Shown here: positions 845 through 22,680 of the stretch, piece after piece | How positions within the stretch are numbered: position 1 is the stretch's first letter | Layout: every line of letters starts with the position of its first letter | From: Candidatus Wolfebacteria bacterium | GTDB lineage: Bacteria; Patescibacteriota; Minisyncoccia; Phycocordibacterales; EsbW-18 | NCBI GenBank assembly: GCA_022616195.1 | Contig: JAKEFG010000017.1 | Span: 1 to 35,232, forward strand | Direction of reading: 5' to 3' | DNA: 35,232 nucleotides | Translations under genes and position numbers: made by a program | The notes under the pieces: model-generated | The model's database searches: none | The model's input: only the letters and a program-made list of their open reading frames with translations | Told to the model about the DNA's origin: nothing

Positions 845-867
845 AATTAGTAATTGGTGAACGAGAG

Positions 868-900
868 CTATTCTAGTGTTCTTAAGAATTTAAGAATGGC
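868..900. promoter_or_regulatory. AT-rich operator-like palindrome, copy 1 (imperfect)
   Basis: CTATTCTAGTGTTCTTAAGAATTTAAGAATGGC, at arsR 3' end and just upstream of the sortase start. Confidence 0.5.
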
Positions 901-1137
901 TTTGCCGGTCGGTGTGAGCGCATGCCGCACCGAATTTACATCATGGCGCTTCATCACCAACCCGGCAAGAGCGGTGCGGCGTATATGCTCGGAAGCTGTT
1001 TTGTAGTTTATGGACAATTCCTCTGCAACCTCATCGACAGACAGCTCCGGTTTCTGTGCAAGCAGTTGGAGGATTTCAATGCGGCGATGGTTCGCCACCC
1101 CTTTAATAATTCGTTCAATGTCTCTCGGTTTTTTCAT
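868..1137 (-). CDS. ArsR-like winged-helix transcriptional regulator
   Basis: MKKPRDIERIIKGVANHRRIEILQLLAQKPELSVDEVAEELSINYKTASEHIRRTALAGLVMKRHDVNSVRHALTPTGKAIL; start taken at MKKPRD rather than the longer ORF start at 1185. Confidence 0.8.
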   Translation of the reverse strand: MKKPRDIERIIKGVANHRRIEILQLLAQKPELSVDEVAEELSINYKTASEHIRRTALAGLVMKRHDVNSVRHALTPTGKAILKFLRTLE

Positions 1138-1149
1138 ATGGACATGGGT

Positions 1150-1183
1150 GCTATTCTTAAATTCTTGAGAATTTAAGAATAGC
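1150..1183. promoter_or_regulatory. AT-rich operator-like palindrome, copy 2
   Basis: GCTATTCTTAAATTCTTGAGAATTTAAGAATAGC, near-perfect palindrome immediately upstream of the arsR-like start. Confidence 0.65.
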
Positions 1184-1240
1184 ATAAAATGGTTTGAGAC
1201 AAAAAAACAAAGGTGGCAACTGGTGTGTATAAAAGCTTGT

Positions 1241-1273
1241 GCCGCGCGAGAGGTGTACTCACTCTCGCGCGGC
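1241..1273. repeat. Strong GC-rich hairpin
   Basis: GCCGCGCGAGAG...CTCTCGCGCGGC, 12-bp perfect arms. Confidence 0.6.
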
Positions 1274-1379
1274 TGGTGCTCCCCTCTGGAGTTGTGGGTC
1301 CGTAGGTTGTGGTCAGGAATACGTCAAGGTGTCGGGGTGTGGTCGTAGCGTGTCGGAGTGTGGCCGGAGCGCATTAAGA

Positions 1380-1413
1380 CCTATTCTGGTGTTCTTGAGA
1401 ATTTAGGAATAGG
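1380..1413. promoter_or_regulatory. AT-rich operator-like palindrome, copy 3 (imperfect)
   Basis: CCTATTCTGGTGTTCTTGAGAATTTAGGAATAGG. Confidence 0.55.
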
Positions 1414-1495
1414 TGCGGGATGTGTGGGGAGTGTGGAGGATGTGGGGGTGATGCGAGGGGTGGTACGAGAGGTGTGGGGAGTTGTAGAGCGAACG

Positions 1496-1534
1496 AACAC
1501 ACCCCCGTACCACGCTGTGGTACGGGGGTGTGTT
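1496..1534 (-). terminator. Intrinsic terminator-like hairpin downstream of the 789-aa surface protein gene
   Basis: AACACACCCCCGTACCAC-gc-TGTGGTACGGGGGTGTGTT, long stem with A/T flanks. Confidence 0.75.
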
Positions 1535-1558
1535 TTGGAATTGCTAAAGATACCCTGG

Positions 1559-3928
1559 TTAAATCGTGATTCGTTGCGTTGCGAGCGAGAGTCCGAAGAA
1601 GCCGAGCACTAGCGAGAGCATGCCTGCGAGTGTTGTGCCTGCTGGGCTCTCCGCGGTGCCGCCGAAGCCGGTGTTGGGTGCTCCGAGAGGAAGCACTGCC
1701 ACCTGCTCACCCAAGACCTCGCCCTCCGGTTCAGAACCGCCAGTATCGCGCCGGAAGCTTGTGCCGCCACCTCCGCCGCTGTCTCCATCTCCGTCACCGT
1801 CTCCTGGCTGTTGAGGTTGGTGGTTACCAAAATCAAGTTCGGTTACGTCTTGGTCGCTTCCGACCGTCACGCGGTGACCAAATGAGCCCTGACAATCTAC
1901 GAAAGGATCCGTGCTGGTCGACGGGAATGTTTGGCTCCAGCCGCCCTGTGGTTCTTCACAAACATTGTATGTTCGTGGGCTCAAGTTAATGAATGTGTAG
2001 TTGCCGCTTGCGTCCGTCGTGGTCGTTGCAGAGATTGCTTCATCATCAGAAATCGAGATGACCCAACCTTCAAGACCCGGCTCACCGACATCCTTAATGC
2101 CGTCGTTGTTAAGGTCACTCCACTTCATGCCGCTGATTGAACCATCACCGTCGCCATCGCCATCGCCACCAGGCGGAACATCACACTCGAGGTCGCTTCC
2201 CGTTACCGTCATGCTGTAGAGCAGGCCGGCGGGGTTACCCTCCGGGTTGTTAGCACCCTCGGTATTCGTCACCGCGACACTGAATGTGTTTACCCCGTCT
2301 TGTACGAAGCTCGTGTCGAGATTGTACGATTCAACAGCGCTAAAGTTATTGAGTTGGACACCATCACCAACGCTGTTGCTGTTCAGTGAAGCATCGTAGG
2401 TATTATCGGAAGCAATCTCAAGCGTGACGCTCGTGACCGGGCCCTGCCAGTTGAACATCTTCTCAAACGTGTGCGTCACTGGAAAGATTGGATCTTGTAC
2501 CGGGTCGTCTCCCCAAATCCACTCCGCCGTATCGAATTCAGGAGCCCAGGCTGGGTGGACAAATGAAAGCAGTTGTGCGAATGCGCCTCCCTTCTCAACC
2601 ACCGTGTTTGTCGTGTCAGAGACGATAGTTACGCTACACTCCTGCGGCTCGCCTATCGGGCGATACTCGTTGTGGAAGGTACACTCAACATTTGAGTCCG
2701 TGGAGAGGTTGATGGTAACCGAGTTGTCTTGGTTTATTGTTGCATCCGCATGTTGACCACAGTCAACTCCAACAAGGAACCAGTCGGCTGGAAGCGGTGT
2801 AACCTCCGATATGTCGTATTGTGAACCGCTCGCCTTTTCTACCGTGGTAGATGTTGCACTCTCGGTTAGGGAGAAATCTCCAATATCACCGGTGAAGTCA
2901 AAGCTCCATGTTCCCGGAAGCGTGTTGTCGCCTGCCGCTGTTACTTCTTTGGTGATTGTGATAAAGCCGGTGTCTTCAGGAAGAAGTCCGTTTACAAGGT
3001 TGAATGTTTCTGTCACTTCATCAACCACTACACTCGCCCCCTTGCCTTCAAGATTTTCCCATCCCTGCTGGAGAATCTCATCAAGTGTGTAACTGTCACC
3101 AAACGGAACGTCCTCTACAACCACACAACCTGGGAAGTCGCTGTCGAGCGCTCCCGTTGTGCCGCCATAATCTATCTCTCCGTCAGTAATAAACACGTCC
3201 CATCCAGCAAGTAAGTTTTCCTGCCCGTCGTATTTGCAGATTGTTACTGTTGATGTTGGAGGAACGAAAGTGTTTGTCACTGTACAAGTAAGATCGCCCC
3301 CCGGAGAGAGATCAAGAAAACCACTCGGAGGCTCTTCAACGAATGAACAATCTCCGCTGAAAGAAACTTCGTAGTTATCTTCCTGATCTTCAGTGACAAC
3401 GTACGTTTCCGACTCAAGCTCACTAAACACCGTGCCCGATTCAGATCCTACAAAAGGACTTCCGTCCACTTCCTCTCCTCCGTCAACTTCAAGGTGGAGA
3501 TTGAAATCGCCTGCGCTAAGCGGCCCGCCGATCACCTCTTTTATAATCGTAATCGTGCCGGTTGTCGGTTCCTGTCCAGGAATGACACAATCGTTTCCCC
3601 AAATCTCTTGTCCTTCTGATGTCCAGTTTTTCCCTAGATATGCATCCCAATGTTCATCCGGATCAGCGTCAAAAGGCGGAATGATATCACCCTCTGGAAT
3701 ATCTCCGTTATGACCATCGTGACCATTTGCTCCAGTAATTTGAGACTTCGGGACATTTGGAGCGTCATTGTAATCACCAGATCCCGTTGCGTGACAAAGA
3801 CGAATCTGATGACTGTTTGCAAACACCCCTACCCCACCTGCAAATGCAAGTGCGAGACCGAGTGCAACCGCAAGCGCTAGCGCGACGGTTGCGAATCCAC
3901 TGCGATGCGTATGAATATACTTAGTCAT
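1559..3928 (-). CDS. Large secreted surface protein, multiple prealbumin/Cna-B/SdrD-B-like domains, C-terminal sortase signal (APNTG + TM + R)
   Basis: Signal peptide ALALAVALGLALAFAGGVGVFA; repeats such as TITIIKEVIGGPLSAGDFNLHLEVDGG and ISGMKWSDLNNDGIKDVGEPGLEGWVISI; C-terminus GAPNTGFGG...AGMLSLVLGFFGLSLATQR. Confidence 0.85.
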   Translation of the reverse strand: MTKYIHTHRSGFATVALALAVALGLALAFAGGVGVFANSHQIRLCHATGSGDYNDAPNVPKSQITGANGHDGHNGDIPEGDIIPPFDADPDEHWDAYLGKNWTSEGQEIWGNDCVIPGQEPTTGTITIIKEVIGGPLSAGDFNLHLEVDGGEEVDGSPFVGSESGTVFSELESETYVVTEDQEDNYEVSFSGDCSFVEEPPSGFLDLSPGGDLTCTVTNTFVPPTSTVTICKYDGQENLLAGWDVFITDGEIDYGGTTGALDSDFPGCVVVEDVPFGDSYTLDEILQQGWENLEGKGASVVVDEVTETFNLVNGLLPEDTGFITITKEVTAAGDNTLPGTWSFDFTGDIGDFSLTESATSTTVEKASGSQYDISEVTPLPADWFLVGVDCGQHADATINQDNSVTINLSTDSNVECTFHNEYRPIGEPQECSVTIVSDTTNTVVEKGGAFAQLLSFVHPAWAPEFDTAEWIWGDDPVQDPIFPVTHTFEKMFNWQGPVTSVTLEIASDNTYDASLNSNSVGDGVQLNNFSAVESYNLDTSFVQDGVNTFSVAVTNTEGANNPEGNPAGLLYSMTVTGSDLECDVPPGGDGDGDGDGSISGMKWSDLNNDGIKDVGEPGLEGWVISISDDEAISATTTTDASGNYTFINLSPRTYNVCEEPQGGWSQTFPSTSTDPFVDCQGSFGHRVTVGSDQDVTELDFGNHQPQQPGDGDGDGDSGGGGGTSFRRDTGGSEPEGEVLGEQVAVLPLGAPNTGFGGTAESPAGTTLAGMLSLVLGFFGLSLATQRITI

Positions 3929-4018
3929 AATTACTGTTAGTTAATGATAGTGATAACAACAAAATGAGCGTGGGCGGCTGTGCCGCTCGCTCCTTAAATA
4001 ACCCCTTACTTCATTCGC

Positions 4019-4048
4019 ATACTACCCCAAATGCGCTGGGGTTGTCAA
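4019..4048 (-). promoter_or_regulatory. Sigma70-like promoter for the 789-aa surface protein
   Basis: On the minus strand TTGACA - 18 nt - TAGTAT, about 90 nt upstream of the ATG; the spacer carries CCCC...GGGG inverted repeat. Confidence 0.6.
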
Positions 4049-4118
4049 CCGACAGTTTATATTGCACCATAGTTTGACAAGATGGCAAGATTGTGTGGAA
4101 TAGCAACTCCTTTGCACT

Positions 4119-4144
4119 CCCGCCGCGGCATAAGCCGCGGCGGG
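4119..4144. repeat. GC-rich hairpin
   Basis: CCCGCCGCGGC-ATAA-GCCGCGGCGGG. Confidence 0.65.
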
Positions 4145-4176
4145 GTTCTGTTTTCCACATTTTCTGCACAGGTTGT

Positions 4177-4224
4177 CCCCGTTAGACCACAACGGTCATC
4201 TACGAAGACCTGTGGCTAATGGGG
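4177..4224. repeat. Structured intergenic element, copy 1
   Basis: CCCCGTTAGACCACAACGGTCATCTACGAAGACCTGTGGCTAATGGGG; nested inverted repeats shared with 3 other copies. Confidence 0.75.
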
Positions 4225-4262
4225 TAAGTCCTCTTTAGATGTCCACATTCGCCCTGAGCGAA

Positions 4263-4457
4263 CTACCACTGACGAAGCTGGGGGGCGCCGAGGTCTTTAC
4301 ATATTTTTCTTGCCAGCATATTTGAAACCTCGGTATGACGAGGTACCGTTGAGGTCTTCTCTGTCTTGGGGTTATAGAAAACGGAATGTTTCTTTCCCTC
4401 GCGGAGCAGGAGACAACCGTGCTTGTGCAGGTGCGAGATGAGCAGACGCCGCTTCAT
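4263..4457 (-). CDS. hicA: HicA-family mRNA interferase toxin
   Basis: MKRRLLISHLHKHGCLLLREGKKHSVFYNPKTEKTSTVPRHTEVSNMLARKICKDLG: HicA dsRBD-like fold with GKKH...VPRH. Confidence 0.85.
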   Translation of the reverse strand: MKRRLLISHLHKHGCLLLREGKKHSVFYNPKTEKTSTVPRHTEVSNMLARKICKDLGAPQLRQW

Positions 4458-4461
4458 GTCC

Positions 4462-4683
4462 TCATGCGGATAGCGTTACCGAGATTTCCTCACGCTTTAC
4501 ATCACCCCCTCTGCCAAACGCCAAGTTCCTATTGGTTTCAAGAATGAGACCGAGTGCCTCTTTTAGATTTGTTTTTGCCTCACGAAGCGTCCGCCCCTGC
4601 GTGTTGACACCGGGAATCTCTTCAACCCACGCAAGTACCCACCCACCGTCCTTTTTGTACACCGCCGTGAAATTTCTTTTCAT
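4462..4683 (-). CDS. hicB: HicB-family antitoxin
   Basis: MKRNFTAVYKKDGGWVLAWVEEIPGVNTQGRTLREAKTNLKEALGLILE; adjacent to hicA. Confidence 0.85.
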   Translation of the reverse strand: MKRNFTAVYKKDGGWVLAWVEEIPGVNTQGRTLREAKTNLKEALGLILETNRNLAFGRGGDVKREEISVTLSA

Positions 4684-4852
4684 ATGTACAGCATACCGCA
4701 TCTCCACGATGCATACAACACCACCAATCTCCACAGACCAAAACCCCGCTTGAAAGTCGGGCTTCCAAGCAAGAAAGGATACAAACACGGCGCCGTCCCC
4801 CACAGGGCGGGACGGCGCACGGACGCGGATGCGGACGGCGCGGGGGCAGTGG

Positions 4853-5167
4853 TCACCAGGGGGTGAGTCCGGTGGGGCGCAGAAGCCAGTACATCAGCGC
4901 GGCGGTGGCGAGTCCGGCGAGGAGCCCGGGCCACCGCCATTTCGGGAGAAGGCCTGCGTACCCGATCCAGGGGCCGCGCCCCGAGTTGGGATGCTTCTTG
5001 AGACGCCGCTCCGTCCTGCCCGACGGCGGTCGCGTCCTGCTCTCCCAATAGAGAACACCCTCCAGTCCCCTGCTCGGGAACCCCATGAGCCCCTCGGAGA
5101 CGAGATGCATCACGAGAAAGCCGACGAAGAGAACGATGAACAGACCGAGTGCTTCCAACAGGGTCAT
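4853..5167 (-). CDS. Hypothetical membrane protein
   Basis: Two hydrophobic segments; AAAGGA-like ribosome binding site upstream of ATG. Confidence 0.5.
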   Translation of the reverse strand: MTLLEALGLFIVLFVGFLVMHLVSEGLMGFPSRGLEGVLYWESRTRPPSGRTERRLKKHPNSGRGPWIGYAGLLPKWRWPGLLAGLATAALMYWLLRPTGLTPW

Positions 5168-5238
5168 AACGGGTCCTTTCTCCGCGCAGATTCACGCAGC
5201 GTTTTTCCAAAAGGACTATGACCATGGGGTGGCCCCAA

Positions 5239-5275
5239 CATCAACCCCGTACCACAGCATGGTACGGGGTTGATG
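5239..5275 (-). terminator. Intrinsic terminator-like hairpin downstream of matrixin-like gene
   Basis: CATCAACCCCGTACCA-cagca-TGGTACGGGGTTGATG perfect 16-bp arms. Confidence 0.7.
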
Positions 5276-5293
5276 TACCGGGGCTTCAGTTTG

Positions 5294-6160
5294 TCAGTAC
5301 AGTCCGTTCACCCCTGCAATGTCGCCTGCGTTGAGGTCGCGCTTCGTGGTCTCGCCTTCGCTTGCGAACCGGAACATGGTCTCTTCAGTGCATGAGTCAC
5401 TTGGGTGTCCGAGGCCGAGCGCGTGACCAAGTTCGTGCTGGGCAATATTCTCAAAATCCATTTTCCCTGCTTCGCCCGTAAGCGACCAGCTGAAGTCAAC
5501 TTCGTCGTACACCTGGTCCCACTCAATAAGCTCGCGAGCCGCGGGAGGACCCCCGAATATGCCCCAGACAATCGTTACCGCAATGGCATTCGGCTCGGCA
5601 ATGCTTCCAAAGTAGACTTCGTTGAGGGTGTCCGGAGTAACAGTGTCCGCACTCAAGTCGCTCTCCGGAGCGAACAACCCCTCCTCAAAAATATTCGTAC
5701 CAATCTCGTTGCCAAGTACGCCGTCTCCAGCATCTTCCCATTCCGCAATCGCCGCAACCTGCACATCAAAAACCTCATTCACATCAAGCAGGTCGCCGTT
5801 TGACGGATTCATTACCCACGGCTCGGCGCTCTTCCACTTGGCACCGCGCGCGAGATATGCAAAGCACGAACTCTCGCCGCCGCCCGGGCCGCCCGGTCCG
5901 CCAGCGTGTCCGGGGCGGTGGTGGTACCCCCGCTTGGGATGCACGAGCGCGAATCCTTCAACCACTTTACCCGTTGCTGGGTCAGTCGCTGAACCGAGCG
6001 AAAAAACATTTGATGCCACCTCAACGGCTTGAGCCGGAAGCGTGAACTCGCGCTCCGCAGCGAGGTGCGACGCGGAGACAGGGAGACGCGCGGCAGACAC
6101 CGGCAGAGCGAGTGCAATACCGAAGAGTGTAATAAGTGCAGTGGTATAACGTGTGCGCAT
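5294..6160 (-). CDS. Secreted matrixin-like zinc metalloprotease (M10A type)
   Basis: Signal peptide MRTRYTTALITLFGIALALPVSA; zinc motif HELGHALGLGH followed by M (ETMF). Confidence 0.85.
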   Translation of the reverse strand: MRTRYTTALITLFGIALALPVSAARLPVSASHLAAEREFTLPAQAVEVASNVFSLGSATDPATGKVVEGFALVHPKRGYHHRPGHAGGPGGPGGGESSCFAYLARGAKWKSAEPWVMNPSNGDLLDVNEVFDVQVAAIAEWEDAGDGVLGNEIGTNIFEEGLFAPESDLSADTVTPDTLNEVYFGSIAEPNAIAVTIVWGIFGGPPAARELIEWDQVYDEVDFSWSLTGEAGKMDFENIAQHELGHALGLGHPSDSCTEETMFRFASEGETTKRDLNAGDIAGVNGLY

Positions 6161-6224
6161 ATATCGTAATACTGCGAGCTGGTAATACCTCTCCAGTATA
6201 CGAATGGCGAGTGTGACGTGCAAG

Positions 6225-6260
6225 CACCAAAAACGCCCCTATATAGGGGCGTTTTTGGTG
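6225..6260. terminator. Bidirectional-looking terminator
   Basis: Perfect 36-bp palindrome CACCAAAAACGCCCCTATATAGGGGCGTTTTTGGTG. Confidence 0.8.
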
Positions 6261-6281
6261 CCAAGCGTACGTAACGCTTAC

Positions 6282-7526
6282 TTATGCGGCGGGAGTAGTA
6301 AATGTCCCTTCACTGGACATCTCTTCATTCCCTGCCTCGTCTTCAGACCCCACGATGAAGTAGTACGTGGTGTCCGCCTCAAGACCAGTGAGCTCAACTT
6401 CGTGGCTCATGGTCATACTGCCGTCGTGCTCAGAGTCCGCGCCGTCCGTGTCCAAAGGCGTCGTGGTGCCGAACCAGACCGTGCTATCAGCGTCCTCGTC
6501 GGTGTCCCAGCCAATGGTGATGCTTGTCGCGGTGAGGTCGGACGTCTCAATGTTTGAGATGACGGGGTCGTCGGTGTCAACGTCCCCAGGGATGGCGTCA
6601 ACGGCATCCTCTGCCTTCTCTTCGGCTTCCTCTGCTTTCTCTTCGGCGTCTTCCCACTCCTCGTCGTCAAATGCCTCCTCGGCTTCGTCGAGAAGCGCCT
6701 GTGCGTCGTCAAGAAGCTCCTGCGCCTCGTCAACGTCCTTGCCGTCTGCGTCAGCGTCGTCAACCATTTCCTGTGCGTCGTCTAGTGCCGCCTGTGCGCT
6801 GTCTATCGCTTCTTGTGCGCTGTCCTCATCGGCAACGTCCTCGTCCTCATCTTCATCTTCGTCCTCATCCTCGTCATCATCGTCAAGGTCACACGCGCCA
6901 AGCGTGTCGCCGTGCGCGAGGTGTGCCTGCACCGCCGGTGCACCTACCACAAGCGTGTTGCCGCTGTGACAGACGCGCACTTTGTGCCGCCCCAAACCGC
7001 GTCCGGGGAGCACGTCATCCGTTGTGGTGGCACCATCGTCATCGGTGAGAATAAAGTCAAAGATGTTCCCGTGTCCCCTGTTCGGGTGTCTGAAGAGCTG
7101 GTTCAAGGTACCACGCGTGATAGGGCCGACGATCCCGACCGGGTCAATACCAAACTTCTCCTGAAGCCGGATAACTGCCTGCTCGGTAAGCGTGCCGAAG
7201 AATCCGGTCACGAGACCCTCGGGATAAAGCTCGGGGTCTTCCGCAAGCAACTCCTGGAGTGCCTCTACATCCTCGCCCGTCATACCGCGCGAGAGCGAGC
7301 GCGTCAGCTGGACCGCTTCAACCAATTGCTGGCGGAGATCACCCTGCTGAGCCTGAAGCTCAAGAATCTGGTCCTGCAGTTCTTTTATCTGCTGGAGCAG
7401 GTCAGAAATCTGCTCCACCGTCGTCGGGGTGGTCGTTGCATACTGCGCAAACGCCGAGGGCGCTCCGAGCCCTATGACGAACACAAGCGCAACAAGACCA
7501 ACACCTACTTTGTGCATACTGTGCAT
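6282..7526 (-). CDS. Secreted protein: peptidoglycan-binding domain + long acidic linker + fibronectin type III-like domain
   Basis: LSRGMTGEDVEALQELLAEDPELYPEGLVTGFFGTLTEQAVIRLQEKFGI (PG_binding_1); DDDDEDEDEDEDEDED...; VISNIETSDLTATSITIGWDTDEDADSTVWFGTT...LTGLEADTTYYFIV (FN3). Confidence 0.85.
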   Translation of the reverse strand: MHSMHKVGVGLVALVFVIGLGAPSAFAQYATTTPTTVEQISDLLQQIKELQDQILELQAQQGDLRQQLVEAVQLTRSLSRGMTGEDVEALQELLAEDPELYPEGLVTGFFGTLTEQAVIRLQEKFGIDPVGIVGPITRGTLNQLFRHPNRGHGNIFDFILTDDDGATTTDDVLPGRGLGRHKVRVCHSGNTLVVGAPAVQAHLAHGDTLGACDLDDDDEDEDEDEDEDEDVADEDSAQEAIDSAQAALDDAQEMVDDADADGKDVDEAQELLDDAQALLDEAEEAFDDEEWEDAEEKAEEAEEKAEDAVDAIPGDVDTDDPVISNIETSDLTATSITIGWDTDEDADSTVWFGTTTPLDTDGADSEHDGSMTMSHEVELTGLEADTTYYFIVGSEDEAGNEEMSSEGTFTTPAA

Positions 7527-7628
7527 AATAAATGTATTTCTAATAATTAATGATACCTGCTAATGAGCCGCCTTGGGGAGTTCCCCTAGTGCGTTATTTA
7601 TGAAGACGGCTTGTATAGGTATATCTTA

Positions 7629-7679
7629 CCCCGTTTTTGACTGTTATGGTTATCCACGGATAACCTGCGACTAACGGGG
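7629..7679. repeat. Structured intergenic element, copy 2 (diverged)
   Basis: CCCCGTTTTTGACTGTTATGGTTATCCACGGATAACCTGCGACTAACGGGG; inner stem GGTTAT/ATAACC covaries with GGTCAT/ATGACC of copy 4. Confidence 0.6.
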
Positions 7680-7724
7680 CAGAGCCCGTAGGACGCTGCC
7701 CAGTCGTTCACGGAGAAAACAGTG

Positions 7725-7753
7725 CCACCCCGCCCTCTCGGAGGGCGGGGTGG
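7725..7753 (-). terminator. Terminator-like hairpin downstream of 295-aa ORF
   Basis: CCACCCCGCCCTC-tcg-GAGGGCGGGGTGG. Confidence 0.65.
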
Positions 7754-7783
7754 TATACAACACTAAGAACGCCTCACAACAGG

Positions 7784-8563
7784 CTAGTCTTGATGGTTGT
7801 GGAACCGCATCGTGGTAACAATGCTCGGTGAATTGAAGTTGCCGCCGTTAATACTGATACAGACCGCCCCTTCCTCACCAGCGTTCGGAGAACCGTTTGC
7901 AAGCGGCTGGGGGCTATATGCCGTTTGTGTCCATCCCGCCTGCATCACCTCGCAGACTCTGTCGCCGGCTTCAACACCAAAGAAGAGCGCGCCAACACCG
8001 GACGCGACGGTAACCTTCGAGCTTTTGAGCTGCCAGTTGGCGTCGTAGAGACGCATCTCCCAGCCGCCCAGATATGCATCCGCACCGCCGTCGCCATCCA
8101 CATCATTGTATTTCACGACACTCATCTGCCCGCCAACGATAAGACCGTCCACGAGCGTCACGCTGTCGCGCGCAGAGCCATCGCAGTCCGGTCCGCGGTA
8201 GATGCCGATGAGAACGTCGTATGAGCCCGGCGTTCCGGGAGCGGTGATGTCAAAGCTTTCAACGTCAACACCCGCGCCGATGTCGTGGTCAGGCGTGTCA
8301 ACACACTGACCTGGCTCTCCATCATCCAGAATATCTACGAACGTTGACTCCCAGTCGTTTTCCGAACCGGCGTTGTTCGGTCCGCGCTCAACAGTCAACT
8401 CAACTTCCACGGTGCCGCTCGGCGGGACCCCGGCGAATGAACCTCCATTGAGCGTTGCTGACAGAATAACGATGTCGGCAAGCGCTGTCGCGGCGCCCGC
8501 AAAGGCAAGCGCGAGACCGAGTGCGACTGCAAACATCCGCGGACTAGGTACGAATTTTTTCAT
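7784..8563 (-). CDS. Secreted protein with Cna-B/SdrD-like domain
   Basis: MKKFVPSPRMFAVALGLALAFAGAATALA signal peptide; MSVVKYNDVDGDGGADAYLGGWEMRLYD...VCEVMQAGWTQT. Confidence 0.7.
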   Translation of the reverse strand: MKKFVPSPRMFAVALGLALAFAGAATALADIVILSATLNGGSFAGVPPSGTVEVELTVERGPNNAGSENDWESTFVDILDDGEPGQCVDTPDHDIGAGVDVESFDITAPGTPGSYDVLIGIYRGPDCDGSARDSVTLVDGLIVGGQMSVVKYNDVDGDGGADAYLGGWEMRLYDANWQLKSSKVTVASGVGALFFGVEAGDRVCEVMQAGWTQTAYSPQPLANGSPNAGEEGAVCISINGGNFNSPSIVTTMRFHNHQD

Positions 8564-8658
8564 ACGCGTATTTGTGTTTATGGAATAAAAACACTCTGAT
8601 AAGAAAAACAGGTGCTGTCTCCAATATACTCTGATAAGAGGCAGGGTGCAAGATACGC

Positions 8659-8684
8659 ACAATCCCGCCATATGGCGGGATTGT
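8659..8684 (-). terminator. Terminator-like hairpin
   Basis: ACAATCCCGCCATATGGCGGGATTGT perfect palindrome downstream of the 690-aa ORF. Confidence 0.65.
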
Positions 8685-8706
8685 ACTGACCTTTAGAGGG
8701 TTTTGA

Positions 8707-10779
8707 CTAAGCCTCCGGAATCTGCTCGTCGCAGTGTCCGGGGCCAATGTCACCTTCGTTGTAGGAACCAAGAGTGCCCGCAAGACCGGTGAGTAACGGT
8801 CTGTCTGCTTTGGCGTTCTTACCTTTTCCTACTGAATCAGAGGTTCTGTCGTCAAAAAAGCCCTCCGCTGCCGTTATTGCGTCAGTTACTTCTGTTGGTG
8901 CGGATGCTCCGTTCAGAATGTTCAGCTTCGCAGCCATGTACTGATGTGCAAGATTGTAGTATGGGTTGCCTGCGGGTGGAGTCCAGAATACGGAGAACCA
9001 AGTGAATGGAGCGGCAATATCGTTCGGTCCAACTACTGGGAACGAGTTAACGGCTGTGAAGAAACCACTCAACTCTGCAAGCGGCGTAACATTATCCCAG
9101 TTATCGTCAGTCGGCGCGCCGCCGTGGAATGACTCGTTGTGTGTCTTCCAGTAGCCCTGCGTCAGCGTACAACCGGTCTCACACTCAACATTAATGGTAA
9201 CGAGCCAATCATTCTCACCAACGTCATCACCTTCTTGGTCCTGATCGCTAGTTACAAAGTTAGCGACATTTCGGTGAAGATTCTCACCGCATTCAAGAAT
9301 TACATCTGTTCCGTCCTGATCGGGACCAAAAGTGACCGAGTACTCAATCGTCTTATCTGCGTCACCTTCACAGATAACGACGCCCTGCGGACCGTTGACG
9401 CTGTCGTCATTCACCGTGACACACTCGTCGGTCTCGTTTGTCGGGTCACCGAAGCTCACTGGCTGTGTGTCTTCCCCGCCGGGCACATCACCGCTTGTTG
9501 TGACCGTTGCGGTGTTTCCACTATCAGTCGGGCTTGCTGAGAGTTGTTCATAGGTACACGTGAGCACTTCTCCAGCACTAAGTGTCCATGGAGCAGTTGT
9601 GTCACCGTCCTCGTCTTCACAACTCACATTTGCTGCGCCAGATACGTTTAGAACATCGTCTACGGCAGTGACTTCTGCATCAGTGTTTCCGAGTGGGTTG
9701 GTAACGGTAATCGTGCCTGTTACGGAGTGATTGATGTCTTCAGACGTTGCGTCCACCGTCACCTCGTAATCAACTGTGTATGATTCCCCCTCCGCAAGGA
9801 GAAGTGTCGTCGTTGCCCCCGTCTTGTCAATTGTCCAGTCCCAGTCGCGGTCATACGATGTTTCTACCGTCTTTGACACGATGAGCGGCGCCACAACTGT
9901 GAACGGCTCACACTCTGCGATGCCTTCTGTGTAGTTTTCATCACCATCGTAGTGGACAGAGTATGAGTATTCTCCAACTCCAGGGGTGAACGGTGCTGAT
10001 TCTGCCTCGCCGCTTCCGTCAAGTGCTACTCCGCTTTCAACAGTCGGGTCTCCATCTTGACATAGAAGTCCGTCGTGAAGCGCGAAGTCAACGGTTCCGG
10101 TTGGAACTCCACCTTCTTGGGTGCCAGCGACAGTAACCATGTCATGTACATCCTCACCTTGTGGAACCACCGCGTCGGTGACGTCCTCATGGCTCTCGTT
10201 GTGTACCTCTGTGGTTACTTCAGGAATCAGTTGCTCAAATGGTGTATCAAGATTTGAATTTCCACCAATTGCTTGATGTGGTGTTCTGTGAGAAGTTGCA
10301 TCAAATGATGCGCTTGAGCGAACGTGATCAGCTGGAGCACCATTTGTCCCCACATCAGCCGAATCCACTACATACGAAAGTAGTGGGGTTTCGAAAGGAT
10401 TTAGGTCCTCCACAAGCGGAACAGCAAACGGGCTCCCAAGAGCTGCTGAACCGTCAGGGAGAGTAACAGAGAGTTCATCTCCTGCTTCACCTCCAAAGTT
10501 ACAGTTTGCACCACCCGCCCATTCAAGTGTTGCTTGGTAATAGATGGTCTGACCTTGCGTAACACTAGTTGCAGGAATTGTTCCACCCGCATCACTGTAC
10601 ACGTCGAAGTTAAGCGTGAACCCCGCACCAGTACAAGCTGGCGGGTCTTGGTCTGCGCCCACAGGTGCCGCGCCGAAAGCGAATGCGAGGGCAAGACCAA
10701 GCCCCAGCACAAGTGCCCCGACAAGGACACTCCGCCGCCAGTCGGTCTGCGAACTGAAGAACGAATTAAAATATGCCAT
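8707..10779 (-). CDS. Large secreted protein with Ig-like repeat and QGYWKTH domain
   Basis: Signal peptide VLVGALVLGLGLALAFAFGAAPVGA; Ig-like GVPTGTVDFALHDG...YSYSVHYDGDENY; C-terminal CTLTQGYWKTHNESF. Confidence 0.8.
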   Translation of the reverse strand: MAYFNSFFSSQTDWRRSVLVGALVLGLGLALAFAFGAAPVGADQDPPACTGAGFTLNFDVYSDAGGTIPATSVTQGQTIYYQATLEWAGGANCNFGGEAGDELSVTLPDGSAALGSPFAVPLVEDLNPFETPLLSYVVDSADVGTNGAPADHVRSSASFDATSHRTPHQAIGGNSNLDTPFEQLIPEVTTEVHNESHEDVTDAVVPQGEDVHDMVTVAGTQEGGVPTGTVDFALHDGLLCQDGDPTVESGVALDGSGEAESAPFTPGVGEYSYSVHYDGDENYTEGIAECEPFTVVAPLIVSKTVETSYDRDWDWTIDKTGATTTLLLAEGESYTVDYEVTVDATSEDINHSVTGTITVTNPLGNTDAEVTAVDDVLNVSGAANVSCEDEDGDTTAPWTLSAGEVLTCTYEQLSASPTDSGNTATVTTSGDVPGGEDTQPVSFGDPTNETDECVTVNDDSVNGPQGVVICEGDADKTIEYSVTFGPDQDGTDVILECGENLHRNVANFVTSDQDQEGDDVGENDWLVTINVECETGCTLTQGYWKTHNESFHGGAPTDDNWDNVTPLAELSGFFTAVNSFPVVGPNDIAAPFTWFSVFWTPPAGNPYYNLAHQYMAAKLNILNGASAPTEVTDAITAAEGFFDDRTSDSVGKGKNAKADRPLLTGLAGTLGSYNEGDIGPGHCDEQIPEA

Positions 10780-11572: not shown

Positions 11573-12082
11573 TTAACGAGTTACACAGATATTTTCCGCA
11601 TCTTCAATCGCGGTTTCGTCTGCGGCATTGAACGAACATACCGTGATTCGCCCGTCGTCATCCTCAACCACAAAGTAGTCAACATCTCCCCCATCAACGT
11701 CCATGCAGTCAGAAATTGACTCACCTTCTGATGTTGAATCTGGGTCAGTTGGAATTGCCGGGATGTATGTTGGGACAATATCGTCACAGAACGCCTCCGA
11801 CACTTCATCGTAGTCACCCTCAATCGCCGGATTCCCGGGAGGGATCCCTGCCGGAAGACCACCCTGATTATCTGCAATGTGTTGACCGATCGCATTCAAG
11901 ATTGCATTAACATTGCTGGTACGCTGACTCTGCTGCGCCTGGGCGAACTGGCGAGCGGGGTTGAGCGCGACGAGTACGATTGCCGCAAGAATGGCGATGA
12001 TGCCGATGACGACCAGAATCTCAATGAGCGTGAACCCCTTCGACTGGCTCAGGGCAAGCCTTTTGTTTTGAAACATTTTCAT
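11573..12082 (-). CDS. Type IV pilin (probable major pilin)
   Basis: Prepilin motif KG|FTLIEILVVIGIIAILAAIVLVALNPARQF; first pilin of the cluster with its own terminator. Confidence 0.88.
   Translation of the reverse strand: MKMFQNKRLALSQSKGFTLIEILVVIGIIAILAAIVLVALNPARQFAQAQQSQRTSNVNAILNAIGQHIADNQGGLPAGIPPGNPAIEGDYDEVSEAFCDDIVPTYIPAIPTDPDSTSEGESISDCMDVDGGDVDYFVVEDDDGRITVCSFNAADETAIEDAENICVTR
12036..12060. repeat. REP-like palindromic unit inside the pilin leader coding sequence
   Basis: CCCTTCGACTGGCTCAGGGCAAGCC encodes leader residues LALSQSKG. Confidence 0.45.
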
Positions 12083-12194
12083 AAAATAACGGTTAGTAAT
12101 TTACTAAATTGACCTTTAGTACCCCACGGCTTCAGAAAAGCCCTAGATTTCATGTTGTACCATACTCTGGCGAAGAATGCAATGCCTCTAGAAA

Positions 12195-12608
12195 CTAGGG
12201 CACTTCCTCCCATGATTCAACGAAATAGTCGTTCGTACTATCCAACACAACTCTCAAGTTGGTCACTGTTCCCTTCGCGTCCGCATGCACCTCAACCGCA
12301 ACCGCCGAAGGCAACGAACCATCCACTGATACTATTGTGCATGTGTTTCCATCAATGGTTATTTCGTCCCCGCCAGCATATGACGACTCTTTTTCGTACT
12401 CCAAGATTGCCGTCTGTACACACCCCTCCGCAAGCGCGCGACTCACTTCTTTCACCTCCGCGTCAAGCGCGTTGAACCGTCCGTAGAACCCCTTGCTCGC
12501 CACGGCAATGACGAGCGTGAGGAGCACTGCGGCGACGATTATTGTCGCGGTAAGCGCGATAAAACCGCGTTGTAAGACGTTATCGTACATACCGCGTCGT
12601 AGTAGCAA
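12195..12608 (-). CDS. Minor pilin-like / PilX-like membrane-anchored protein
   Basis: RGFIALTATIIVAAVLLTLVIAVASKGFYGRFNALDAEVKE; within pilin cluster. Confidence 0.6.
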   Translation of the reverse strand: MLLRRGMYDNVLQRGFIALTATIIVAAVLLTLVIAVASKGFYGRFNALDAEVKEVSRALAEGCVQTAILEYEKESSYAGGDEITIDGNTCTIVSVDGSLPSAVAVEVHADAKGTVTNLRVVLDSTNDYFVESWEEVP

Positions 12609-13035
12609 ACTGACGACCGTTCATAACAAAACTCACCGAAACAGCGTCCGGCTCGGAAGCAGGCGTACGCTCAACCACAAATTCAGTAATGCTAATTGCA
12701 CGGCTGGTGAGTGCATCTCCATTGAGCGTCAAGGCATCATCGTCATTCACATCAAACAGCAGTGCGCCCTCGCCTGGCTTGGTAACATCTAACTCGTCGG
12801 TGGTCTCCCCAGCGTCCGGCTCATTTACTGTTACGTCACCGTTGAGCGCCCAGTCAATCTTGCGGAATATAAAGTTCGCCTCCTCTTCGGTAGCGACGCG
12901 GGTTGCCGTGCGCACACTTCCCTCAATGAGCTGATACGCTCCGAGCATCGCCCCTCCCAAAATAATCGCGAGGAGTCCGATGTAGACGAGCACCTCAAAA
13001 AGAGTGAGTCCAGATTGTCGCAGACCTAACCGCAT
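12580..13035 (-). CDS. Minor prepilin (PulG/GspJ-like)
   Basis: RLGLRQSG|LTLFEVLVYIGLLAIILGGAMLGAYQLIEG. Confidence 0.75.
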   Translation of the reverse strand: MRLGLRQSGLTLFEVLVYIGLLAIILGGAMLGAYQLIEGSVRTATRVATEEEANFIFRKIDWALNGDVTVNEPDAGETTDELDVTKPGEGALLFDVNDDDALTLNGDALTSRAISITEFVVERTPASEPDAVSVSFVMNGRQFATTTRYVR

Positions 13036-14564
13036 GAGTTATCGTCCTCAATAATTTTAAGGTTTTTCTGGCTTTCGTTGGACATAAAGACATACCGACC
13101 AGAGTTCTCAATATCAATCCCCGTTGGTTTCTGCTCTGTGTTGTACCCATCTGTGCACGAGGAAACCGGCTGGATATTCTCAGGATTCGTAACCCTTAGA
13201 ATGAAGAGCGATTCATTGGGGTCATTGACCGCCAAAAACGCCAACTTTGTCGTGTTGCCCTCTGTGATTGTCTCCCGAACAACAATACCCCGAACCTCGG
13301 TCTTTGAACCGTTGAGATTCATATTGTACGGATCACTCAATGCGCTGATTGATTCCGGATTTGTGACATCAAGAATATAGAAGTCACCGTCACTCCCCGC
13401 GTTTCTGCGGCCGAGATAGAGTTCCGAACCAACGAGTGCAAGACTCTTGCCGTCGTCGTCTCCATCAGCATCAAAACCGTCACCCGCAAGTTGTGGGTCG
13501 TCTGGGTCAGAAACATCAACAACGAGAACCTCACCTGTGTTATCAGATGTCGCAAGAAAAGCATAACTCTCCGCCACCACAATGTCATTGACGTTGTGAT
13601 TCACATCAAGACCTCCTCTCCACTGCGGATTCGCGGGGTCAGTTATATCAAGAACATAAAATTCGCCTCCTCCCTCTCCCGGCTCGTCCTCATCGTCGCC
13701 TATTCTGTGTATACCAACATACAAGAAATCACCTGAAATATAGATTGCCTGACGAATGATTTCCCCCGCCGGTGGACAATATTCATCACATGTCACGACC
13801 ACATCGGGAGTCGCCGTTGCAATAACCGGAGCAGGCGCAAGGGGGTTTGTCACATTGATAACCTGCACTTCAGGTACATCCATGCGATCACCGCTCATTG
13901 TAAACGCGTATACCTCCGAACCAAACTTCCCAACGTCAATCGTGTTAAGACCCTGCCCTGTGTGTGCCTCCCCAAGAGGATCTTCACTCACATCATTAAT
14001 TAGGTCATTGATTGTATAGATATAGATATCAGATTTCCCGTCTGCGGCGGCGTTCGCTGTCATGTAGACATAGTCCCCAAATACATCTATGGCCGTTGAC
14101 GGCTCGCCGCCGATGTCTGTCTGCTTGAACGCATTCGGGTCGTCAAAATCATCAGATAGCGGGTGGGTGGGACAATCCCCGGCGTGAACCGCAACTGCAT
14201 CTGGGTTCGCAAACCATGTGAAGAGACCAAGATCCTGCAGATAAATAGCACTGCCCCACGAAGAAACCGTGTTCACCAGCTTATAGCAGTCAGTGTTGTC
14301 GCCCACGACATCCGTATCAATTGAGAACACACCGTCAATCGCTGCCGCCGACACTATTGAGTCAAAACCAATCCGTGACTGTCCGAACGCATCTTCAAGT
14401 TTTTCTTCCACTTTGTAGAGCGCGAGGTTGTTGAGTTCGGTACTCAACGCAAGCGATTGGTTGCCGGAGACGGCAATGACCACGCCGGTCAGCGTGAGCG
14501 TTATGAGCGCAAACGCTATCAGAAGTTCTATGACTGCTACGCCCATTTGGGGGTTTCTATTCAT
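13026..14564 (-). CDS. Minor prepilin fused to a beta-propeller (LVIVD-repeat-like) domain
   Basis: N-terminus MG|VAVIELLIAFALITLTLTGVVIAV; repeated blades VYVLDITDPANPQW, VLVVDVSDPDDPQLAG, FYILDVTNPESISAL, LFILRVTNPENIQPV. Confidence 0.8.
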   Translation of the reverse strand: MNRNPQMGVAVIELLIAFALITLTLTGVVIAVSGNQSLALSTELNNLALYKVEEKLEDAFGQSRIGFDSIVSAAAIDGVFSIDTDVVGDNTDCYKLVNTVSSWGSAIYLQDLGLFTWFANPDAVAVHAGDCPTHPLSDDFDDPNAFKQTDIGGEPSTAIDVFGDYVYMTANAAADGKSDIYIYTINDLINDVSEDPLGEAHTGQGLNTIDVGKFGSEVYAFTMSGDRMDVPEVQVINVTNPLAPAPVIATATPDVVVTCDEYCPPAGEIIRQAIYISGDFLYVGIHRIGDDEDEPGEGGGEFYVLDITDPANPQWRGGLDVNHNVNDIVVAESYAFLATSDNTGEVLVVDVSDPDDPQLAGDGFDADGDDDGKSLALVGSELYLGRRNAGSDGDFYILDVTNPESISALSDPYNMNLNGSKTEVRGIVVRETITEGNTTKLAFLAVNDPNESLFILRVTNPENIQPVSSCTDGYNTEQKPTGIDIENSGRYVFMSNESQKNLKIIEDDNSCG

Positions 14565-15240
14565 AGTGCCAATCTATACGCCCATTGGTGCTAATGTCAA
14601 TTGCCACGCTATTTGCGTCCCGAGAAAGATTAATCTCCAGATCTCCCGATACTTCTCCCGAAAGCTGGTCAAACTCTACTTCAAAATCAGACGGGCTCAC
14701 ATCTACCGAGGTATTCTTTGGAAACGTAATTTCGCTTCCGCCGTCCGCAAACAGTACATACTCACCGTCTTCCGCACGCACGCCGTGCGGCAACTGTTCC
14801 ACATTGTTCATCGCCTGGCTCCGGGCTTTCTGGAGTAAACTCACCACCAAATCGCGCTCGGAGGCAAATGCGTAGCGTTGGAATGCACCGATGGAAACCA
14901 TAAATCCGAGCGCCGCAATAAACCCAATCAAACCGACCACGACGAGTATCTCGACAAGGGTAAACCCAGCACCATTTTTGAAGCTGTTTTTTGCTCGTCG
15001 CTTAAATTCTCTGATTGCATTGCCATGGTGCTTCAGTTTTTGTTCGCGCCCGCGAGCGTCTTCTTCAGATTGATATGCCTCATATGCTACGAGGCGCCAA
15101 GGTATATATCGCTTCGTTGAAAATTCAGTACCTAGGTTATGCTCGCGAAGCCGACGTCTAAGATTATCGGTTGAACCGATATACGTGCTCTTGCGACTCA
15201 AACTCTCCAGAAGATACACATAGTACATAGACATATTCAA
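14557..15240 (-). CDS. GIY-YIG nuclease domain fused in frame to a minor prepilin (GspH-like)
   Basis: MSMYYVYLLESLSRKSTYIGSTDNLRRRLREHNLGT...EEDARGREQKLKHHG then KNGAG|FTLVEILVVVGLIGFIAALGF; no ATG/GTG/TTG in frame between the two domains. Confidence 0.85.
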   Translation of the reverse strand: MNMSMYYVYLLESLSRKSTYIGSTDNLRRRLREHNLGTEFSTKRYIPWRLVAYEAYQSEEDARGREQKLKHHGNAIREFKRRAKNSFKNGAGFTLVEILVVVGLIGFIAALGFMVSIGAFQRYAFASERDLVVSLLQKARSQAMNNVEQLPHGVRAEDGEYVLFADGGSEITFPKNTSVDVSPSDFEVEFDQLSGEVSGDLEINLSRDANSVAIDISTNGRIDWHYE

Positions 15241-15250
15241 AAATGGTGCT
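14968..15250 (-). mobile_element. Putative GIY-YIG mobile element with 15-bp perfect TIRs
   Basis: AGCACCATTTTTGAA (14968-14982) / TTCAAAAATGGTGCT (15236-15250), flanked by GGGTAAACCC (14958-14967) and GGGTGAACCC (15251-15260). Confidence 0.75.
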
Positions 15251-15267
15251 GGGTGAACCCCTGCACG

Positions 15268-16533
15268 TTAGCGTATTTGGTTGGAAAGATTCTGGGTGAT
15301 TTCATAAATCGGCGTAATGACCGAAACGGCGACAAACCCGACCAACAGCCCCATCAAAATCATCAAGACCGGCTCAATCGCGCTTGAAAGATTTTTGGTG
15401 AGCGAGTCCACTTCGCCCTCGTAGAGCTCGGAGAGGTAGACAAGGGTGTCCGAGAGGTTCCCCGTGCGCTCACCAATAGCAATCATGTGCGACATCACCA
15501 CCGGAAACAGCACCGAGTGTTTCTGAAAGTGCTGGGAGATCTGCTCGCCGCGCTTAACGTGTTCGGCGGCGTGACGGAGGTGTGCGCGGTAAACGCGGTT
15601 GCGCGTTGTTTCCGCGGTCGTTTCAAGCGCATCCACGACCATGACCCCGCTTTTGAGCATGAGCCCCAGGGTGCGGCAGATGTTTGCCATGTTATAGTTC
15701 CGCATAATCAAGCCGCTCAGCGGTAGGTGGATGAATACTCGGTCGCTCACTATGCGAAACTGTTTGACGTTCCGGTGAAGTACGACAAGCGCAATGGATA
15801 CTGCAAGCACAACGCCGAGAAGCGGCAGTCCGTACGCTTTGAGAAAATCACTCACGCCGATCAAGATGCGGGTGGTAAGCGGAAGCTCTACACTCAAACT
15901 GTTGAAAATCGGAAGCACTTTCGGAAAAATGTAGACCGTAAGCATGCTTGTGACCCCCAGTGTTGCGAGGGTGATGAATATCGGATACACCAAGGCGCTT
16001 ATCACCTTTTTACGAAGTGCTTCTTTTTTCTCCAGCTCCTCGGCCAGGTAGTGTAGATTCTGGCTCAACACACCGCTTGATTCGCCGACGCGGATGATAT
16101 TGATGGCGAATTCGCCGAAGTGACGACGATACCGATCAAGCGCCCCCGAAAGAAATCGTCCGTTCGCCACATCCTGAATGACCCGGTCAAGTACGCGCCC
16201 CGCACGACGCGACTCTGTTTGCTTGCGCAGAACATGCAAACTCTCCAAGACCGGCACCCCTGCTTTGATGAGAAACGAGAGGCGCTTGGCAAAGAGCGAC
16301 TGATCTTTGGTGGAAAGTCGGCCACTCATTAAGGGCATCTGCCACGCGAGCTTTTTTTTGCTCTCGGGTAACGCGGCACGGTTCGCAGGAGAGAGTTTCT
16401 CGGATGCGGACGGCACACTGCGGGATACAATGGTGTCTGTCGGCGGAATATCGGGCAAGAGTATACCGTCAGTCGTTGCAACTCGTTTTGGCTTCCGTTG
16501 TTTCCTTTGGAAAAAAGTAAAATCCATGGTCAC
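15268..16533 (-). CDS. pilC: Type IV pilus inner-membrane platform protein PilC/GspF
   Basis: FAKRLSFLIKAGVPVLESLHVLRKQ; three TM segments; C-terminus GLLVGFVAVSVITPIYEITQNL. Confidence 0.92.
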   Translation of the reverse strand: MTMDFTFFQRKQRKPKRVATTDGILLPDIPPTDTIVSRSVPSASEKLSPANRAALPESKKKLAWQMPLMSGRLSTKDQSLFAKRLSFLIKAGVPVLESLHVLRKQTESRRAGRVLDRVIQDVANGRFLSGALDRYRRHFGEFAINIIRVGESSGVLSQNLHYLAEELEKKEALRKKVISALVYPIFITLATLGVTSMLTVYIFPKVLPIFNSLSVELPLTTRILIGVSDFLKAYGLPLLGVVLAVSIALVVLHRNVKQFRIVSDRVFIHLPLSGLIMRNYNMANICRTLGLMLKSGVMVVDALETTAETTRNRVYRAHLRHAAEHVKRGEQISQHFQKHSVLFPVVMSHMIAIGERTGNLSDTLVYLSELYEGEVDSLTKNLSSAIEPVLMILMGLLVGFVAVSVITPIYEITQNLSNQIR

Positions 16534-17750
16534 TCATGCACCACACGAAGCACTTCTTCAACGGTCGTGAGTCCCTGCTGTGCCTTGTAGAGACCGTCGG
16601 CGAGCATTGGCGTCATACCGTTTCGGATAGCGATTTTTCTAATCTCACTCGCCGATGCCTTGCGTAATACTGCCTCACGGACCTCGCCATCCATCATCAT
16701 AACCTCATTCACACAGAGGCGTCCGCGATACCCGGTACCGCCACACTCATTGCATCCCTTCCCCTCATGGAGTACACGGTCCGATTCAACCACCAGATGC
16801 GGCAGAAGTTCAAGCAGACGGTCACGCTCGGCGTCGGTCATCGCGCGCTCGGCCTTGCAGTCAGGGCAAATGCGCCGGACAAGCCGCTGGCCGATGGCGA
16901 TGTTCACCGTTGAGGCGACAAGGTACGGCTCAATACCCATATCAAGCAAGCGCGGAAGCGTTGTTGCCGCATCATTCGTGTGAAGCGTAGACAAGAGGAG
17001 ATGCCCGGTGAGCGCGGTGTTAACCGCGATGCCTGCGGTTTCCTTGTCGCGAATCTCCCCTACCATGATGATGTTCGGGTCTTGGCGGAGAATGGAGCGC
17101 AGGCCGTTCGCAAAGGTCAAGCTCGCCCGCGCGTTCACTTGAATCTGCTCAATGCCATCTACGGCGTACTCAATCGGATCCTCAATGGTGACAATGGACA
17201 CACCCTCCGTGTTGAGCATTTTAATAATGGTATAGAGCGTTGTGGTCTTCCCCGAACCGGTGGGACCGGTGGCAAGAATCATGCCCGTCGGGCGCTCTAT
17301 CGCTTCCTGGATTTTTGCCCGATCGTCATCGGAAAACCCTAGCATGCCGAGTGTAAATTGCTCTTCTTTGTCGGCAAGAAGACGCAGGACGGCATTTTCA
17401 CCGTGATACGTCGGTGCAATGGAAACACGAATGTCCACCGCGCTCTTGTCCGGCAGGTGTGCACGGAAACGCCCATCCTGCGCCGCTTGGTGTTCGTCCG
17501 TGCGCAAGCCGGCGAGCACCTTGATGCGCGAAATAATCTCATCGTGGAAGTGGCGCGGCACTGACAGGCTTTTCTGGAGTACGCCGTCAATACGGAGGCG
17601 GATGCGCACGTTCCGTTCGCTCGGGTCAATGTGAATGTCGGAGGCGCGCATGCCCTGCGCATAGGCAATGAGCTCATCCACCAAGTAAATGATAGAGCGT
17701 TCATCTCCCTTTTCCGCTTCGCGCTCAATGATTTTCTCTATATCAGGCAT
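16530..17750 (-). CDS. pilB: Type IV pilus assembly ATPase PilB/GspE (short N-terminus)
   Basis: ASDIHIDP, Walker A GPTGSGKTTTLY, VTIEDPIEY, GEIRDKETA, tetracysteine CPDC...CNECGGTGYRGR. Confidence 0.93.
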   Translation of the reverse strand: MPDIEKIIEREAEKGDERSIIYLVDELIAYAQGMRASDIHIDPSERNVRIRLRIDGVLQKSLSVPRHFHDEIISRIKVLAGLRTDEHQAAQDGRFRAHLPDKSAVDIRVSIAPTYHGENAVLRLLADKEEQFTLGMLGFSDDDRAKIQEAIERPTGMILATGPTGSGKTTTLYTIIKMLNTEGVSIVTIEDPIEYAVDGIEQIQVNARASLTFANGLRSILRQDPNIIMVGEIRDKETAGIAVNTALTGHLLLSTLHTNDAATTLPRLLDMGIEPYLVASTVNIAIGQRLVRRICPDCKAERAMTDAERDRLLELLPHLVVESDRVLHEGKGCNECGGTGYRGRLCVNEVMMMDGEVREAVLRKASASEIRKIAIRNGMTPMLADGLYKAQQGLTTVEEVLRVVHE

Positions 17751-22346: not shown

Positions 22347-22423
22347 TGGTGCCGAGGGTGAGACTCGAACTCACGACCCTCTGCTCTTCAGGCAGATGCT
22401 CTAACCAACTGAGCTACCTCGGC
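22347..22423 (-). tRNA. tRNA-Phe(GAA), CCA encoded
   Basis: GCCGAGGTAGCTCAGTTGGTTAGAGCATCTGCCTGAAGAGCAGAGGGTCGTGAGTTCGAGTCTCACCCTCGGCACCA. Confidence 0.97.
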
Positions 22424-22680
22424 GGGTTCTTTTGTATTGTACCCTCTTTTACTATCTTCTCAATATAATCCCGCCGCTTCAACTTTTTGAGCCACTGTTC
22501 AATGTACCGTGCCTCCGATATAGTTGGGTACTCTTGAGAGAAGACCATTTGTAACTTCCCAAGTTTTTTTGTTGAGGGGGTGTAACCGCCCGTGTGGTGT
22601 CTCAACCGCTCTTGTATGTTTGTTGTACTCCCAATGTAGTACCTGCCGCCTTCGCTTTTCAGGATATAGACGTGTGCCAT
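22414..22680 (-). CDS. GIY-YIG nuclease domain protein
   Basis: MAHVYILKSEGGRYYIGSTTNIQERLRHHTGG...EARYIEQWLKKLKRRDYIEKIV; stop codon lies inside the tRNA-Phe 5' end. Confidence 0.85.
   Translation of the reverse strand: MAHVYILKSEGGRYYIGSTTNIQERLRHHTGGYTPSTKKLGKLQMVFSQEYPTISEARYIEQWLKKLKRRDYIEKIVKEGTIQKNPPR

Follow-up and report, generated by a model that had tools for sequence, protein, structure and literature searches.

How a nuclease gene comes to lie inside a pilin gene, at the very codons where the pilin precursor would be cut, is the question raised by this locus. It lies in a stretch of 35,232 nucleotides (hereafter the window) from Candidatus Wolfebacteria bacterium (GenBank assembly GCA_022616195.1, contig JAKEFG010000017.1, positions 1–35,232 of the forward strand), assigned in GTDB to Bacteria; Patescibacteriota; Minisyncoccia; Phycocordibacterales; EsbW-18. 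A first-pass annotation of this DNA had described a GIY-YIG element with perfect inverted repeats, inserted at the prepilin-peptidase site of a minor pilin gene. That finding stands and generalises, and its interpretation is supported: the locus is probably best explained as a minimal mobile element, encoding a GIY-YIG nuclease and nothing else, which inserted at the Gly-Phe codons of the pilin gene and regenerated the prepilin cleavage site.

Structure of the interrupted pilin gene

The element, its repeats and the surrounding operon are listed in Table 1. The inverted repeats reported earlier (AGCACCATTTTTGAA, 14968–14982, and TTCAAAAATGGTGCT, 15236–15250) are present and perfect, and are longer than the 15 bp then given: with the flanking duplication's A/T included, the perfect repeat reaches 19 bp (ACCCAGCACCATTTTTGAA), and similarity continues over 33 nt at 85%. 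It outscored every control position of the same geometry in the locus (0/23 as high). The flanking 10-bp palindromes, GGGTAAACCC (14958–14967) and GGGTGAACCC (15251–15260), were also found as described. Their reading as a target duplication was replaced after comparison with relatives: their outer GGG/CCC belongs in part to the terminal CCC...GGG of the element itself, and the duplication is therefore better read as a 4-bp TTYA pair (TTCA and TTTA, one mismatch in four).

Table 1. Features of the interrupted pilin locus and its surroundings in the window.
Feature	Position	Strand	Remarks
Mobile element, 289 bp, CCCAGCACC...GGTGCTGGG	14965..15253	-	Ends common to L004, L012, L016 and L083
Left terminal inverted repeat CCCAGCACCATTTTTGAA	15236..15253	-	18 bp, perfect
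Right terminal inverted repeat TTCAAAAATGGTGCTGGG	14965..14982	-	18 bp, perfect
TTCA, left copy of presumed 4-bp target duplication	15254..15257	-	Within Gly-Phe codons
TTTA, right copy of presumed 4-bp target duplication	14961..14964	-	Encodes G|F with the element's GGG
Empty pilin target site			GGGTTTACCC
GIY-YIG::prepilin fusion ORF, 225 aa	14557..15234	-	ATG at 15234; GIY-YIG residues ~3–86; G90|F91TLVEIL prepilin motif
Severed original leader ORF, MKSPRIFPTKYANVQGFTQHHF*	15237..15305	-	Stop 2 nt before GIY-YIG ATG (stop-start)
pilC (T2SSF, PF00482)	15268..16533	-	Overlaps former pilin start
pilB ATPase (PF00437)	16530..17750	-
Four pilin-like genes downstream, same operon	11573..14564	-	LVIVD-repeat pilin, two N_methyl pilins, PilX-like
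Second GIY-YIG copy (L005)	22417..22680	-	Adjoins tRNA-Phe; different divergent clade; no TIR

The element's gene encodes an 86-aa GIY-YIG nuclease that joins the minor pilin in frame at G|FTLVE, with no stop codon between them, and the resulting ORF runs from the nuclease through a basic tail to G|FTLVEILVVVGLIGF and the remainder of the pilin. Since the element sits exactly at the spot where the pilin precursor would be cut, and in frame, nuclease and pilin are probably made as one protein. The earlier claims that no stop or frameshift separates the two domains, and that the pilin part has no internal start codon, were borne out. So was the claim that removal of the element restores a continuous frame from an ATG at 15305 (MKSPRIFPTKYANVQG|FTLVEIL); excision together with one TTYA gives MKSPRIFPTKYANVQG|FTLVEILVVVGLIGF.

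Searches against Pfam placed GIY-YIG (PF01541, 3.2e-15) and N_methyl (PF07963, 1.4e-4, residues 89–111) in the same frame, and the fusion carries the type IV prepilin features of a G|FTLxE N_methyl motif and a hydrophobic helix. An AlphaFold2 model (mean pLDDT 76) comprises a GIY-YIG domain, a low-confidence linker (residues 85–91) and a pilin helix (89–143); with Foldseek its best matches were Slx1 and UPF0213, at the weak level of E ~2e-3. The Pfam match and the fold together place the nuclease in the GIY-YIG superfamily, where its nearest solved relatives by sequence are 1zg2 (5e-6) and Slx1 (2e-5). Slx1 is a branched-DNA nuclease with an extra domain, and neither it nor UPF0213 is known to be mobile. 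The GIY-YIG gene is the element's only ORF, no known transposase (DDE, HUH, Tyr or Ser) being present, and no group I or II intron covariance model matched L001 or 19 relative loci.

Uninterrupted versions of the pilC–pilin junction, which the first-pass annotation had suggested seeking, are present in other families of the same order; the host's own genus is represented by one genome in the collection. Each of the seven closest pilC orthologues (41–55% identity, L166–L172) is followed by a pilin-like gene without the insert. The best case is L167 (G410), in which the pilin ATG overlaps the end of pilC, as predicted for the window (MKSLRIFAGKGNFSRGFTLVEILVV). As with homing genes, then, a host gene is interrupted at a conserved sequence and has uninterrupted orthologues. 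Among relatives of G592 and G276, two further genomes with such insertions, a clear empty allele was not found. The four downstream pilin-like genes of the window operon carry no insertion, and the host genome encodes a prepilin peptidase. Beside the pilus operon, at window 206–10779, lie a sortase gene and genes for large surface-type repeat-domain proteins (SdrD_B, SpaA, Big_3_5, Matrixin).

Under the mechanism that we propose, the element would consist of CCC-initial terminal inverted repeats (TIRs), a duplicated TNNR target of about 4 bp and a single gene for a UPF0213/Slx1-like GIY-YIG nuclease, which most likely recognises its own repeats. The element would enter the minor prepilin gene at the boundary between its Gly and Phe codons, and the element's terminal GGG, followed by TTYA from the target, would restore Gly-Phe (GGG-TTY) on the pilin side. 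The nuclease's C-terminal tail, which is basic, would then take the place of the basic leader, regenerating a full prepilin cleavage site. The severed leader keeps the host start codon and stops 2 nt short of the nuclease ATG, so host translation signals probably drive the nuclease through stop-start coupling. The leader–nuclease join is TGA-AT-ATG in the window and takes other forms in other pilin genes: TAA-T-ATG in L340, an overlap in L225 and read-through in G276. Prepilin peptidase would then yield an unaltered and presumably functional mature pilin, while the nuclease would stay behind in the cytosol as a detached leader.

Insertions at the same codons of other pilin genes

Insertions at identical Gly-Phe codons were found in six pilin genes, in four genomes from four families: the window copy, one in G592 (L225/L322), one in G291 (L340) and three in a single operon of G276 (L354). 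All six read GGNTTYA|CCC...GGG|TTYA, with ends from three TIR families (CCCAGCACC, CCCCGTT[AT]GAGA and CCCCTCACC). Operon order in the G276 cluster matches that of the window, and the first G276 pilin is an orthologue of the interrupted one (36% identity, 4e-31); elements from different TIR families have thus struck the same codon.

The earlier proposal that the element targets the sequence encoding the pilin G|FT motif thus holds in part: five further insertions at the same codons in three other genomes show that insertion at GGNTTYA recurs, but the family is not specific to pilins. The exactness of the site could reflect targeting by the nuclease or could be survivorship, with insertions persisting at the only tolerated position. 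The frequency of pilin insertions is not estimable from these searches, because the queries of two of them, including the search of 297 genomes described below, contained pilin sequence.

Pfam assigned GspH and N_methyl to the host gene of L340, where the fusion has lost the YIG glycine, and placed N_methyl just under the cut-off in one L354 copy. Two further GIY-YIG fusions to pilin-like genes (L344, with a weak PilX_N match, and L329) are not at Gly-Phe codons in like manner. In five of the six Gly-Phe insertions the two TTYA copies carry different bases at the Phe wobble position, whereas the duplications at start codons, described below, are exact. Two of the G276 copies, in different pilin genes, match at 272/275 positions and agree both in the TTYA mismatch and over 11 nt of sequence on the left flank. 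This fits less well with fresh transposition there and points to homing-like copying between pilin genes, with some flank carried along, beside transposition proper.

A family of short elements bounded by inverted repeats

With loci identified earlier included, a search of 297 genomes from the order yielded 98 distinct small GIY-YIG domains. About 75 of these genes are TIR-bounded elements of 275–320 bp, an arrangement that control positions almost never gave. The inverted repeats (roughly 12–24 bp, within ~50 nt of the domain) nearly all have the form (C/T)CC...GG(G/A). An exact direct repeat of at least 4 bp abuts the TIR in 31/73, where chance would give low single digits; 23 of the 31 are exactly 4 bp and mostly TNNR (TGAA, TACA, TTTA, TAAA, TTGA). 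Direct repeats of 7–9 bp flank the tRNA-Ala copies, and the rRNA, RNase P and L10-leader copies are without exact duplications. Insertion contexts comprise 16S rRNA, 23S rRNA and RNase P RNA (identified with Rfam), tRNA genes (ARAGORN), start codons of ordinary genes, positions upstream of rplJ, intergenic DNA and pilin genes.

Other GIY-YIG copies carrying the pilin element's own TIRs, for which the first-pass annotation had advised a search, were found in L004, in the same genome, and across families in L012, L016 and L083. L004 lies upstream of rplJ and has ends of the same kind, ACCCAGCACCTTCTTGT...ACAAGAAGGTGCTGGGT; L083 was the one real copy among the loci taken forward from a sequence-pattern scan of contigs, in which nearly all matches were due to chance and lay in GC-rich genomes.

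At start codons, a short leader (for example MNPVRD) reads into the nuclease or stops near its start, and in 9/22 copies the nuclease stop codon and the regenerated ATG of the host gene overlap as ATGA. Elements of this kind stand at ordinary genes in L232, L242, L267, L272, L273, L278, L279 and others. Four GIY-YIG elements (L233, L252, L256, L259) lie in the RNase P RNA gene, at one site judging by their flanks (RF00010 confirmed in L252). The GIY-YIG tree shows strong clustering by context, yet single clades span unrelated genes, and the pilin copy L225 is nested within a start-codon clade. A suggestion that the L225 repeat had been captured from a pilin gene (it encodes TPFEIL) was dropped, as the repeat is common to the whole of that clade.

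The elements might be MITE-like, TIR-bounded passengers that an unrelated transposase mobilises in trans, in which case the GIY-YIG gene would be cargo, or a factor for homing or retention. This we regard as unlikely, although canonical TIRs and 4-bp duplications are what it predicts, and ORF-less hairpins with the same ends (CCCAGCAC...GTGCTGGG) occur in 21/148 genomes, against 0 for a reversed-pattern control. Two such hairpins are in the host genome and several have TATA or TTTA duplications. It is also true that we know of no GIY-YIG transposase. However, TIR sequence co-varies with GIY-YIG clade: similarity over the inner 10 nt of the TIR follows protein similarity (Mantel r 0.43; 0/2000 permutations as high), and the correlation is unchanged when pairs from the same RNA gene are left out. 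Moreover, the GIY-YIG gene takes up nearly the whole element in every clade. We favour an element that would be moved by its own nuclease. The broader proposition—that in Patescibacteria a large class of mobile elements shorter than 320 bp would have GIY-YIG nucleases for transposases, with some lineages exploiting the prepilin Gly-Phe niche, the host start codon and self-release by prepilin peptidase—we hold to be evenly balanced.

RNA stems, remaining alternatives and known systems

We also give a low probability to a homing endonuclease gene that spreads only through double-strand-break repair between similar sites, its repeats serving as an RNA stem (cut by RNase III or looped out, as in an intervening sequence, IVS). 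Insertion at conserved gene sequences and the left flank carried along in G276 would suit such a gene, as would the mismatches between repeat arms in the 16S, 23S and RNase P copies: 17 are G-U and one A-C (p=1.4e-4), a pattern like that of an RNA helix. From this bias it appears that in RNA genes the ends are also maintained as an IVS-like RNA stem; complementary ends kept as a helix, the hallmark of rRNA IVSs, are thus seen in the rRNA and RNase P relatives only and not in the pilin copy. Outside these genes there is no such bias (19 G-U, 21 A-C), and one clade occupies unrelated genes with 4-bp duplications; there, mobility seems the better explanation for the symmetry of the ends. Folding predictions give the TIR stem for the pilin mRNA as well, so its processing by a double-strand RNase is possible.

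It is very improbable that the fusion is a selected joining of nuclease and pilin domains with a role in pilus or DNA-uptake biology. Frames are intact and pilin fusions recur in several families, including the orthologous pilins of the host (G000) and G276, but different pilins carry different GIY-YIG clades and TIRs, uninterrupted orthologues exist, and the same elements sit at rRNA, tRNA and start-codon sites. An assembly artefact or chimera, conceivable for a short, repeat-bounded element in draft contigs, is hardly credible given a continuous frame, an architecture repeated in several genomes, a host operon ordered as in G276 and two flanks that are both orthologous to uninterrupted loci.

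Parts of this family have probably been seen before. Insertions with small GIY-YIG genes in the 16S and 23S rRNA genes of CPR bacteria, which match no group I or II intron, have been reported as cases to which spread by homing does not apply (PMC11270868, J Bacteriol 2024), and some of our rRNA copies are probably of the same kind. That survey covered rRNA genes only and the term 'inverted repeat' is absent from its text, whereas the present elements also occupy tRNA, RNase P, leader, start-codon and pilin sites. Bacterial 23S rRNA IVSs, which are excised by RNase III, likewise hold an ORF between the complementary ends of a long stem; the present elements differ in encoding a GIY-YIG nuclease and in occupying protein genes with 4-bp duplications. 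Free-standing GIY-YIG homing genes of the T4 Seg type are similarly selfish genes beside or inside conserved genes but, unlike them, ours have TIRs, short duplications, ORF-less derivatives and unrelated targets within one clade. DDE insertion sequences and MITEs share the TIRs, short target duplications, single ORF and ORF-less hairpin derivatives, whereas here the whole element is below ~320 bp and an 86-aa GIY-YIG nuclease, not a DDE transposase, is its sole protein.

In the open-licence literature we found no description of TIR-bounded GIY-YIG elements, of their target duplications or of a GIY-YIG gene sited in a prepilin. What is new, and apparently undescribed, is the element class itself, TIR-bounded and with a GIY-YIG nuclease as sole protein, with the pilin case as its most striking member; it would be less novel if another transposase proved responsible. 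Its members occupy tolerated positions within essential genes across these ultra-small bacteria. If our reading is right, they would rank among the smallest autonomous mobile elements, powered by a nuclease fold that has no known transposase role, and they abound in a bacterial group that is among the largest and least cultured. The same reading would account for the 'orphan' GIY-YIG genes scattered over these genomes and for rRNA insertions left unassigned, and insertion into a protein gene would become harmless through a regenerated processing site, with a host protease removing the intruder.

Six small GIY-YIG genes are readily detected in the host genome, with a seventh weak match inside a long ORF. 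Four of them (L002, L003, L005, L006) belong to other, divergent clades and adjoin tRNA genes, each flanked on one side by a partial tRNA copy; in three of the four, GC-rich palindromic inserts lie within the truncated 5' tRNA copy. Short inserts are common in this order between the probable L10-leader terminator and rplJ (L136–L164); Rfam did not call an L10 leader in the loci tested. At L258 (G480:C132), a GIY-YIG domain without TIRs is in frame with a protein containing a signal-peptide-like segment. Hairpins with CCCAGCACC ends at L311, L313, L314, L315 and L297 (G474) are centred in larger near-palindromic repeats of ~120 bp, several copies of which occur in that one genome.
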